From Paenibacillus albus (GTDB lineage Bacteria; Bacillota; Bacilli; Paenibacillales; Paenibacillaceae), in NCBI RefSeq assembly GCF_003952225.1, contig NZ_CP034437.1:62001-126000 (forward strand): a DNA stretch of 64,000 nt. The letters run 5' to 3'. Both the position numbers and the translations under genes were made by a program. Positions 39,472 to 61,900 of the stretch are shown here, one piece after another; position 1 is the first letter of the stretch; each line of letters starts with the position of its first letter. The notes below the pieces were generated by a model. It was not told the origin of the DNA, did no database searches, and was given only the letters and a program-made list of their open reading frames with translations.

Positions 39472-39523
39472 GGCACTGAAAGTATGGGGTGCGGGCGGTT
39501 CGCCGCCGCGCTTTCGCTGTCGT

Positions 39524-39715
39524 TTACTACTGGTCGCTCCTGTACTCTTACTGCTGATCGCCGCCGTAGCTTCCGCTTCCGATTACCACCAGCCGCCGCC
39601 CGTGCTTTCACTCCCTTGACTACTAGTCGCTCCCACAACTTTTTTCCGTTCACCGCCGCTCGAGCTTCCACTGCCCTTACTACTAGTCGCTCCTCCAACT
39701 CTTACCACTAGCCCC
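39524..39715. repeat. Degenerate TTACTACTAGTCGCTCC repeats
   Basis: Close copies of a 17-mer lie at 39524-39540, 39617-39633 and 39677-39693, with shorter relatives (TTACTGCTGATCG at 39548, TTACCACTAG at 39702). The first and last copies extend over about 40 bp including the shorter relative. The segment is pyrimidine-rich on the plus strand. A minus-strand frame (39462-39698) repeats ERLVV(R/K)(A/G)V, which is probably just the repeat translated. Confidence 0.6.
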
Positions 39716-39741
39716 CACCCGTGCTCCCCCTCCGCTGGCTC

Positions 39742-39924
39742 TAACGGACTCAGAAGACGCTATTATGCCAGAATCACGGGTTTCCACATTCTAACGTGCC
39801 CCAGAGACGCTATTTTAGGCAAAAGCGCTTCTTTCCGACGAAAAAGTGCCGAATAACGTCGCTGAGATCCGTTACATTTGTTCGCGGGCGATTTTCGGCG
39901 CAATAAGATCATCTGGGTCCGTTA
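39742..39924. repeat. Four-module 23-bp dyad element, copy A
   Basis: A 183-bp element. Four 23-bp modules of the form TAACG-N11-CG(T/C)TATT (imperfect) lie at 39742-39764 and 39792-39814 (forward), and 39852-39874 and 39902-39924 (reversed). Start-to-start spacing is 50, 60, 50 bp. It ends 13 bp from the HAD-gene stop codon. Two further copies with identical spacing are at 46154 and 61718. Confidence 0.9.
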
Positions 39925-39937
39925 GCGCGAATACAAG

Positions 39938-40513
39938 CTACAGCCTCGCATCTAACGCGTCCATCCACTCCCCTTGCTCATCCGCCAGCAAGGTATCCCA
40001 GCCCAGCTCGCGCGCAGGGACTAGATTCCTCTCCGAATCATCCACGAACAGGACGCGATCCTGCGTCCGCAGCCCAGATTGAACAAGTTTATAAATATCC
40101 AGGGAAGGCTTGCAGCTCCCAACCTGGCTCGAGATCGTTACACTCGCCAGGTATGGCGCAATAGGCTCCAGCAATGGCATTAACCATTCATGCCGATGAT
40201 TGCTAAGCACGTGAATGTCCGCGGCATCGCTCCATGATTGGATACGGTGAAAAGCCGGCAGCACACGAAGATGCCGAGCTAATATAGCGCGTCCATCCGC
40301 AGCCGTTAAGCCCGGATAGTAGGAAGTCAGCCACTGCCAGAAAGCCTCCTCGTCAGATTCACCGTTCCATAATGTACTTCTCAGCTGCACCTTGAAGCTC
40401 TCTTTCAGTTCGTGGACAGGAATCTCCACTTCCCCCGCGATTTCCTTCCATAACTCTAGCATATTTGTCACGATGACGCCGCCTGCATCTAGTACTAATT
40501 GCAGCCTACTCAT
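39938..40513 (-). CDS. HAD-superfamily phosphatase-like hydrolase
   Basis: 191 residues. Motif I is LVLDAGGVIV with nucleophile Asp9; the second Asp of the usual DxD is replaced by GG, as in the HAD-IA group with DxGGV. Motif II is HVLSNHRHEW, the motif III lysine is in VGSCKPSLDIY, and motif IV is VLFVDDSERNL. Its ATG lies inside the end of the preceding gene (ATGAGTAG), after GAGG, so it is translationally coupled to it. The substrate is unknown. Confidence 0.8.
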   Translation of the reverse strand: MSRLQLVLDAGGVIVTNMLELWKEIAGEVEIPVHELKESFKVQLRSTLWNGESDEEAFWQWLTSYYPGLTAADGRAILARHLRVLPAFHRIQSWSDAADIHVLSNHRHEWLMPLLEPIAPYLASVTISSQVGSCKPSLDIYKLVQSGLRTQDRVLFVDDSERNLVPARELGWDTLLADEQGEWMDALDARL

Positions 40514-45547: not shown

Positions 45548-45579
45548 AAGCCGTCTGCATCGTTGCAGACGGCTTTTTT
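45548..45579 (+). terminator. Terminator of ahpCF
   Basis: AAGCCGTCTGCA/TGCAGACGGCTT stem with a 4-nt loop followed by TTTTT. Confidence 0.9.
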
Positions 45580-45655
45580 AGTTCGATCGCACAAGGAAAT
45601 ATATCCCAACATATCGAAATTGAATAGATACATATCCATCTGAGGAGGGATACGC

Positions 45656-46129
45656 ATGAGTTATGATTTTAACAGGGTATGGCTTGCAAAGAAGTTTGAA
45701 GAGATACGCAAACGTATACTCGCAGCGCTTGAACAACTCAATGATGATCAAGTCAATTGGAGTCCTGACGGGAGAAGTCATAGCATTTCAACCTTAATCA
45801 AGCATATAGACGGCAACATCCAAGAAAGAATTTTGAAAGGCATGCTGCATCAGAACATACAGCGAAATCGGGACGATGAACTTAAACAAACCTTTATTCG
45901 AAAGTCTGAACTGAGCCAACTCGTTCAACATCGATTCGAGCTGATCATTCTCACCGTGACAAGCATGACGGATGAAGCGCTTGAACAGAAACAGTTGGTC
46001 AGAACACGGGAACGAACCAGCCTGGATATGCTGCATCAATGTGCTGCGCACTACTCTGAGCATATGGGCCAAATCTTTTATATCGCCAAACAAATCTTGC
46101 AGGAGCAGTACAAATCGACGTCCATCTAG
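45656..46129 (+). CDS. DinB/DUF1572-family protein
   Basis: 157 residues forming a four-helix DinB-like bundle. Candidate metal ligands are His50 (LIKHIDGNIQERI), and His132 and His136 (AAHYSEHMGQI), the usual three-His set. DinB-family proteins include bacillithiol and mycothiol S-transferases and many of unknown role. The ATG follows GAGGAGGG. It is monocistronic; a four-module repeat element begins 25 bp after its stop codon. No SOS box was identified. Confidence 0.8.
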   Translation: MSYDFNRVWLAKKFEEIRKRILAALEQLNDDQVNWSPDGRSHSISTLIKHIDGNIQERILKGMLHQNIQRNRDDELKQTFIRKSELSQLVQHRFELIILTVTSMTDEALEQKQLVRTRERTSLDMLHQCAAHYSEHMGQIFYIAKQILQEQYKSTSI

Positions 46130-46153
46130 TGGGTACAAGCCCTGCTCCCCCTC

Positions 46154-46336
46154 TAACGAACTCAGATAGCGCTATTCGAGCAGATTTGGCCGGTTTGAAA
46201 TTCTAATGAACCCTGGCAACGTTATTGTTCGCATTTGAGCCATTTTGGAGGCAAAATCGAGGCAATAACGCTCCCCCAGTTCGTTAGCCGATTTAACCGT
46301 CCGAAATGGGATAAATAAGCGTTATACGGTTCGTTA
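46154..46336. repeat. Four-module 23-bp dyad element, copy B
   Basis: 183 bp between two convergent genes. Modules lie at 46154-46176 and 46204-46226 (forward), and 46264-46286 and 46314-46336 (reversed), again spaced 50, 60, 50. The third module reads TAACGAACTGGGGGAGCGTT plus ATT on the minus strand. Linkers share only scattered bases with copies A and C. Confidence 0.9.
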
Positions 46337-46350
46337 GCCCGAACCGATGC

Positions 46351-47226
46351 TCACGGATGGGCAGCGTGCTCCGGCCGCCCCTCCAGCCAATCCGCAAGCG
46401 TCGCGACACGCTCTGGGAACTTCGCGCTCCTCGCAAGAAACCCGCTTCCATGCTGAGGCATCGGATCCTGGTCCGTCGACTGGTAACGAAGGTCGACACT
46501 CCAGCGGACGTGGTCCGAATTGTTCGGCGTCGACATGTGCAGCAGCCTGTCATTAAACAGAATCGCCGTGCCTGCCTTCACCGGCAGCGCGACCGTTTCA
46601 CGTGAACCGAGCTGATGCTCATGCAGTGCCGTGTAGCTTGTGCCGGTGTACGATTCCGCATGCCATTCCAGCAGCTTCGAGTTCTGTGTGCGCGGCTTGA
46701 TGTGCAGGCAGCCATTCTCGAGTGTCGCATCGACAAAAGAAATCCAAACCGTTATAACCGGATTGGCGTTCGAGTCCGGCCAATACGATTTGTCTTGATG
46801 CCACGGCACTGCTCCGGCTGCGACGCGCGGCACCTTCGGACGGGTATTGTATACCGGGCTTGCGAAGATTTCCGCCCCGATGAAGGACTCCACGGCATCG
46901 ATGATTTTGGGATTGCTGAGGAGATGGAAGTAGCCCGGGGTCCGGTTGCGCCAGCTGCGCCCGAACTGCAAGAAGTGCTGATCCGTGAGGCCATCGAACA
47001 GCTTCGCCAGACGATACTTAAGCGGTTCTCCCTCCATTTTATCCGTAATGAGCCCCTTCTCGAACAGTGCGTCTGCTATCGCAGATACCTCATCCATCAT
47101 GGCCTGCCGGGGCGGCTCCATATCCGCGTCATTTAGCAAATCCTCCAGAACCAAATAACCATCTCGATTGTATTGCAGCAGCTGCTCATCCGATAAACTC
47201 CCGCGCGTCGTACGGTTAAATGCCAT
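46351..47226 (-). CDS. Phytanoyl-CoA dioxygenase (PhyH) family protein
   Basis: 291 residues with the Fe(II)/2-oxoglutarate oxygenase fold. The HxD pair His143/Asp145 is in VPWHQDKSYW, the distal His230 in DRLLHMSTPNN, and the 2-oxoglutarate-binding Arg241 in HVRWSVDLRYQ. It would hydroxylate a small molecule using oxygen, iron and 2-oxoglutarate. GGGGGGAA precedes the ATG. It is 28 nt downstream of the AraC-type gene and very likely co-transcribed with it. The substrate is unknown; the neighbouring sugar operon on the other strand suggests carbohydrate or metabolite conversion. Confidence 0.85.
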   Translation of the reverse strand: MAFNRTTRGSLSDEQLLQYNRDGYLVLEDLLNDADMEPPRQAMMDEVSAIADALFEKGLITDKMEGEPLKYRLAKLFDGLTDQHFLQFGRSWRNRTPGYFHLLSNPKIIDAVESFIGAEIFASPVYNTRPKVPRVAAGAVPWHQDKSYWPDSNANPVITVWISFVDATLENGCLHIKPRTQNSKLLEWHAESYTGTSYTALHEHQLGSRETVALPVKAGTAILFNDRLLHMSTPNNSDHVRWSVDLRYQSTDQDPMPQHGSGFLARSAKFPERVATLADWLEGRPEHAAHP

Positions 47227-61717: not shown

Positions 61718-61900
61718 TAACGGATCACAGACGCGTTATTACGACAAATTCGACAGCTCGGAAAATGTAACGAAACACAGAAGCCTTATCGCCAGCAAAT
61801 GGGCCAATTCTGGGGCCATCGTGGCGCAATAGCCACCCTGCGTTCCGTTAGAGCAGCAGGTACGTGAAGAAACGACGAATAAGCGCTCTACAATCCGTTA
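61718..61900. repeat. Four-module 23-bp dyad element, copy C
   Basis: 183 bp downstream of the GH2 gene. Modules lie at 61718-61740 and 61768-61790 (forward), and 61828-61850 and 61878-61900 (reversed), spaced 50, 60, 50 exactly as in copies A and B. All four start TAACG and end TATT or close to it (the second ends TTATC). Confidence 0.9.

Follow-up and report, generated by a model that had tools for sequence, protein, structure and literature searches.

Three elements in the window

The stretch of DNA analyzed here (the window, 64,000 nucleotides) covers positions 62001-126000 of the Paenibacillus albus genome, hereafter the home genome, which consists of one contig of 6,632,345 bp. Three of its intergenic spaces hold an element built from four 23-bp modules:

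39742..39924, no strand: element A, spacing 50/60/50, mostly class GGA; 3′ end of the right-hand gene 13 bp off
39742..39764, + strand: element A module 1, 0 mismatches
39792..39814, + strand: element A module 2, 0 mismatches
39852..39874, - strand: element A module 3, 0 mismatches
39902..39924, - strand: element A module 4, 2 mismatches
46154..46336, no strand: element B, spacing 50/60/50, class GAA, flanked by convergent genes
46154..46176, + strand: element B module 1, 0 mismatches
46204..46226, + strand: element B module 2, 1 mismatch
46264..46286, - strand: element B module 3, 0 mismatches
46314..46336, - strand: element B module 4, 2 mismatches
61718..61900, no strand: element C, spacing 50/60/50, mixed GGA/GAA
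61718..61740, + strand: element C module 1, 0 mismatches
61768..61790, + strand: element C module 2, 2 mismatches
61828..61850, - strand: element C module 3, 1 mismatch
61878..61900, - strand: element C module 4, 2 mismatches

The first-pass annotation had reported 12 modules in three intergenic places (39742, 46154, and 61718), with start-to-start distances of 50, 60, and 50 bp; we find every position as described and the same spacing in all three elements. The consensus that it gave, TAACG-N11-CG(T/C)TATT, is followed less strictly: six of the 12 modules match it exactly, two have one mismatch, and four have two. At ≤2 mismatches there are 24 module matches in the window vs 8.25 expected in shuffles (maximum 15). 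Upstream of element A, the interval 39500-39740 holds a tract of repeated CTACTAGTCGCTCC-like units.

The element family in the genome and the order

Genome-wide, we detect 107 two-module arms at ≤3 mismatches vs none for the reversed pattern. Four-module elements number 57; 42 have exactly the 50/60/50 layout, and the remainder are off by 1-2 bp. The location at gene 3′ ends that had been noted for the three copies holds in the window and across the genome: 30 of the 57 elements lie between convergent genes and only three between divergent genes, as placed by a simple in-house ORF caller, and these elements show no orientation bias relative to genes. Their distribution along the chromosome is uneven, with 46 of the 57 in the first 3.85 Mb (58% of the length; binomial P = 0.0004).

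In the order, arms at ≤2 mismatches occur in 103 of 199 genomes and in 32 of 50 genera, and the reversed-pattern controls give none. The number of arms per genome ranges from 0 to 248. Spacing is thus shared by these 32 genera although their linkers vary, and nearly all listed pairs of arms lie ∼110 bp apart. Some genomes contain recent bursts of near-identical copies, and tandem elements also occur (five in a row at L301).

Conservation, phasing, and turnover

We turned the 42 home-genome elements to a common orientation and aligned them without gaps. Information content per column is 1.69 bits in the module cores, 0.86 in the N11 segments, and 0.53 in the linkers, in agreement with the early remark that linkers are less conserved than modules; mean identity between copies is 91% in the cores and 42% in the linkers. 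Conservation extends ∼2 bp beyond the outer modules on each side and ends there sharply, so that each element is bounded by terminal inverted repeats, GC-TAACG...CGTTA-GC. There is no convincing excess of target-site duplications for k of 2-10 at any offset, and no empty site was found. A/T content peaks every ∼10.1 bp across the whole element. This phasing persists in the linkers alone, where no permutation matched the observed power, and the A/T profile returns in another species and another class of module (correlation 0.73-0.80). A periodicity of ∼10 bp is the pattern expected of DNA that is bent or wrapped round a protein, and suggests such wrapping here.

Within elements, module position 6 (A or G), the base just after TAACG, is identical in all four modules of 48 of the 57 elements, vs 11.7 expected. 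It is the sole covarying position, and the agreement spans the four modules, beyond pairing partners. Since modules 1 and 2 also agree, the concordance points to one reader per element serving four sites and not to base pairing. Pairing across the dyad is 0.516 vs 0.507 expected from column frequencies, and no compensatory pairing between element halves exceeds column composition. Pairing of bases, whether inside one module or over the full element, was thus rejected as the cause of conservation.

The closest relative compared is Paenibacillus sp. OV219 (G018; 91% nucleotide identity over one probe), in which about a dozen loci have an element in the matching intergenic space. Across eight alignable orthologous elements, 17 of 348 core positions have changed (4.9%), compared with 86 of 384 for N11 plus Y (22%) and 227 of 722 for linkers (31%). 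Cores that have diverged by ∼5% beside linkers at 31% indicate that the modules of the home genome are under selection in place. At one locus with orthologous flanking genes, modules 2 and 3 are jointly GGA in the home genome and GAA in OV219. Against a second genome of the genus, G004 (79%-85% nucleotide identity), there is no clear shared site among 30 loci. Elements are thus retained for some time and then turned over. The first-pass suggestion of a mobile-element relic therefore stands in part: positions are not kept between the more distant species, and copies have multiplied in certain genomes, but in the home genome the modules are under selection in place.

Two of the window's sites differ in OV219 (L181/L267 comparison). 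At the site of element A (39742-39938) one arm is left and an ABC exporter gene replaces the other half, and at the site of element B (45578-46366) both the element and the neighboring DUF1572 gene are missing.

A recurrent neighbor gene

Clustering all ORFs beside elements across genomes revealed one recurrent neighbor, a protein of ∼220 amino acids; the other recurrent neighbors are only generic ABC transporters, AraC-type regulators, and dehydrogenases, and no DDE transposase recurs among them. In the home genome this partner gene is free-standing:

G000:C1:5267282-5267953, + strand: partner gene, outside the window; element ∼41 bp downstream

At 82 of 108 loci with a close homolog, an element lies in the interval from -60 to +300 bp relative to the stop codon, and at five it lies on the 5′ side; a reversed-sequence detection control gave 0 of 139 loci. 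Close homologs are present in 102 of the 199 genomes, 87 of which have arms, and absent from 97, 16 of which have arms (P = 8e-24, Fisher, uncorrected for phylogeny). In 16 of the 108 close-homolog loci the stop codon falls inside module 1, so that the module encodes the last residues of the protein (for example, TTACGAACTCAG followed by TAA, read as L-R-T-Q-stop). The end of the gene and the element are thus one unit. Beside some homologs (L312, L315, L316, L319, L321, L322, L354, and L376) the elements have a 50/70/50 layout, in which the central spacing is 10 bp longer, close to one helical turn, and the phase is therefore kept.

Searches of Pfam, NCBIfam, PHROGs, PADLOC, and PDB sequences with the partner returned no family above threshold, and Foldseek gave no significant whole-chain PDB match. 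The AlphaFold models are of high confidence, with a pLDDT of 90.4 for the whole protein and 92.2 for the N domain. In the predicted model, residues 33-145 resemble the catalytic domain of I-Bth0305I (3r3p; Z = 11.4, 96 of 97 residues, 2.7 Å) and the NGO0050 endonuclease-like protein (3hrl; Z = 9.9), and residues 145-218 form a winged helix of the Fur/MarR/Z-alpha type. The partner is therefore likely to consist of a Vsr/EDxHD-type PD-(D/E)XK nuclease domain followed by a C-terminal winged helix, an assignment that rests on the VIA comparison. Divergent members of the family match DUF559 (PF04480) and REase_MTES_1575 (PF18741). In the alignment, E57, D71, and H92 are invariant and D95 is conserved in >90%, a combination compatible with the residues from which the EDxHD group takes its name (PMC3943268). 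Close-group members have E-x-Q where divergent members have E-x-D or E-x-K. With Q in place of K or D, the predicted nuclease activity of the close group is uncertain.

Covariation between recognition helix and module

In 74 nonredundant protein-element pairs, all columns of the protein were scored by mutual information against each position of the module. At position 6, the highest of all protein columns is residue 186, in the recognition helix, with an MI excess of 0.72 (the next column has 0.33): Arg186 occurs with G in 39 of 39 cases and Gln186 with A in 15 of 17. For position 8, residue 190 is the top column and residue 187 the third; Tyr187 accompanies A in 12 of 13 cases, and His187 plus Arg190 accompany C/T in 37 of 37. 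Pairings of Arg with G and of Gln with A are classical protein-DNA contacts. On well-supported branches there are three independent Gln/Arg contrasts, all in the expected direction; the sign test is not significant, since the independent changes are too few. These correlations suggest which amino acid reads which base, from few independent events. Together with the gene adjacency, they supply a strong candidate reader for what had been proposed from the modules as sites read by a protein on one face of the helix. In G004, two paralogs stand beside two element classes, GAA (L311) and GGTTG (L333). For the 14 all-GGA elements of the home genome, no Arg-type partner gene was found in that genome, which suggests either a lost partner or relaxed recognition.

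A second gene-repeat pair

Divergent homologs have other dyad arrays directly downstream from the gene, some tandem with a period of 51-52 bp (L330, L337, L342, L343, and L346) and some with a period of 111-114 bp (L334, L335, L336, and L341). These arrays led to the prediction of dispersed sites, with a distinct sequence, for a second paralog in the home genome, and such sites were found:

G000:C1:3835727-3836362: second paralog, with its own downstream dyad array at ∼3836400-3836800
492293, 1376618, 1496612, 1876487, 1947437, and 3574734: dispersed CTCTCAGC/GCTGAGAG loci
4941432, 5448490, 5950377, 6015895, and 6145542: the remaining dispersed CTCTCAGC/GCTGAGAG loci

The dyad CTCTCAGC...GCTGAGAG occurs at 16 places in the home genome (control, 0), 12 of them off the paralog's array, at the eleven dispersed loci. 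There are 52 in OV219, one in G004 (beside its own homolog), and none in the other three genomes of the genus tested. In the OV219 array, dyad starts alternate at ∼50/61 bp. Judged from sequence, the second paralog and its dyads are an orthogonal second gene-repeat pair with the same spacing rhythm as the 183-bp elements. Four homologs, L343 (G000:C1:5352164-5352754), L342, L330, and L346, end in tandem 51-52-bp units, in up to 14.6 copies, with a dyad and a TACAT motif.

Nature and spread of the elements

We consider it probable that the elements, dispersed as they are, serve the nuclease-winged-helix protein as binding arrays of four sites each, the two forming a gene-and-repeat pair whose dispersal is, we propose, driven by the nuclease. 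The gene bears one element at its own 3′ end, and further copies are scattered in the intergenic spaces at gene 3′ ends. The winged helix would read each 23-bp pseudo-dyad module (TAACG-N11-CGYTATT), with residue 186 reading position 6 (Gln-A, Arg-G) and residues 187 and 190 influencing position 8, and the four modules at 50/60/50, together with the A/T-G/C alternation every ∼10 bp in the linkers, would allow all ∼183 bp to be held or wrapped by the protein in a single complex. The nuclease domain may then drive the dispersal of copies by DNA cutting and repair; for example, pieces of ∼187 bp might be taken up at breaks, a route on which no target duplication would arise. Retained copies could be useful to the host or to the protein. 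Several findings count against this scheme: the arms in 16 genomes that lack a close homolog, the 14 all-GGA elements of the home genome with no present Arg-type partner, the small number of independent Gln/Arg changes, the E-x-Q of the close group, and the lack of any target duplication or empty site.

The main rival concerns the last step. The elements could be sites at which a domesticated DNA-binding protein regulates genes or organizes the chromosome; such a protein would have a vestigial nuclease fold and no part in mobility, and element copies would be made by rare duplication. The binding part is common to both accounts. We regard this as unlikely, though deserving of serious attention: modules selected in place, a phased A/T pattern suggestive of a wrapped complex, a close group with E-x-Q and not E-x-K, and a location at gene 3′ ends rather than in promoters all speak for it, whereas the turnover of positions, the near-identical bursts and tandem arrays next to the gene, and the conservation of E57, D71, H92, and D95 do not fit it well. 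A conventional mobile element is a good deal less probable. An ordinary MITE, a nonautonomous transposon whose inverted ends carry transposase sites and which is moved by a conventional DDE transposase, would have conserved modules because only competent copies spread; the inverted symmetry and sharp GC-TAACG ends, the spread from 0 to 248 arms among relatives with near-identical copies in some genomes, and the scant positional conservation to G004 are as expected of one. By the target-duplication test, however, the elements are not MITEs, and orthologous copies that have not moved keep their cores (4.9% changed) while their linkers change by 31%. Moreover, the recurrent neighbor is the nuclease-winged-helix protein and not a DDE transposase, and an orthogonal second pair has the same spacing.

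The overall inverted layout and the position at gene 3′ ends might also suggest an RNA element, with the 183 bp transcribed from gene ends and folding as a long hairpin (bcr1-like, a terminator, or a 3′-UTR element). The chance of this is very small, given the lack of compensatory pairing, the covariation of position 6 across all four modules, the lack of an Rfam match for the element, and the lack of orientation bias relative to genes; a hairpin as such was rejected on the covariation and the Rfam search. Least credible of all is a neutral, recently copied repeat under no constraint. Sub-families with similar linkers do exist, but linkers in general are far less alike between copies than cores are, and the reading is refuted by the orthologous elements, in which the same contrast is seen. 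The first-pass annotation had named this as its null, with variable spacing or linkers as conserved as modules; a genome-wide check of the pattern gives the opposite result, with spacing off by at most 2 bp in those of the 57 elements that are not exactly 50/60/50 and modules more conserved than linkers.

Taking the whole family together, we favor, with somewhat less assurance than the binding-array reading itself, a new gene-and-repeat system: a nuclease-winged-helix family of which a genome has several orthogonal members, every member having dyads of a distinct sequence, spaced in helical steps of ∼50/60 bp, both next to its gene and dispersed along the chromosome, together with a readable residue-to-base code and a wrapped, nucleosome-like architecture.

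Relation to known systems

REP/REPIN sequences and their RAYT (TnpA-REP) genes, which form "REPtrons," are short multicopy intergenic repeats paired with one repeat-bearing gene; repeat and enzyme coevolve and are patchy across relatives, and RAYT is an HUH tyrosine transposase whose substrates are single-stranded hairpins tagged with GTAG/CGTC (PMC8266576, PMC3116915, PMC2817692). The present system shares with them a gene beside its own repeat (82 of 108 loci), a dispersed repeat (57 elements), patchy occurrence across relatives, and coevolution of repeat and enzyme. In contrast, the partner here is, by profile and fold comparison, a PD-(D/E)XK and winged-helix protein rather than an HUH/Y1 tyrosine transposase, and the repeat consists of four dyads in double-strand DNA, set at a constant helical phase; it shows no hairpin covariation, and its consensus has no GTAG/CGTC tag. 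It is thus REP-RAYT-like in organization but departs from that system in two defining features, the enzyme class and the hairpin.

With the EDxHD homing endonucleases (I-Bth0305I; PMC3943268) the partner shares the predicted catalytic-domain fold, a predicted nuclease tethered to DNA-binding parts, and long putative targets, and its conserved E, D, H, and D residues may correspond to theirs. However, the partner gene lies outside any intron or cut target gene, and its sites are dispersed by the dozens with one copy at the 3′ end of the gene itself. We would place the predicted nuclease domain with EDxHD/Vsr-like folds and make no claim of homing by the gene. DUF559 and REase_MTES_1575 models match the divergent members, whereas the close members are below the reach of these models, and the winged helix and the pairing with a repeat are outside the family definitions. 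TnsA of Tn7 likewise has a PD-(D/E)XK domain followed by a winged helix and gives a weak structural match (Z = 6.6), but no TnsB/C partner is seen beside the gene here. bcr1 and other MITE-like repeats of Bacillus are intergenic, 150-200 bp long, and present in many copies in a Firmicute; they differ from the present elements, which have no RNA fold, no target duplication, and a fixed four-site architecture.

No earlier description of the system was found in the open-licence literature on Paenibacillus repeats, MITEs, REPINs, and DUF559. The gene-and-repeat system therefore appears to be undescribed, its novelty being provisional since the search was limited to open-licence papers. If our reading is correct, the repeat system of this large order of soil bacteria is REP-like in scale, is based on an unrelated enzyme, and is built on double-strand, helically phased binding arrays. 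The spread and retention of dispersed repeats would become testable in it, and it would provide a DNA-recognition code found in nature, where a single amino-acid change seems to accompany a single base change at four sites simultaneously. Proteins whose present annotation is hypothetical or DUF559-like would gain functional leads.

The repeat may itself serve as a landing site. In G004, an IS110-type element starts at the same point, CCGTT^A, in two different elements (L168 and L172), and its transposase is readable in L172; with insertion at an identical point in both, the repeat module appears to be the target of this insertion sequence.
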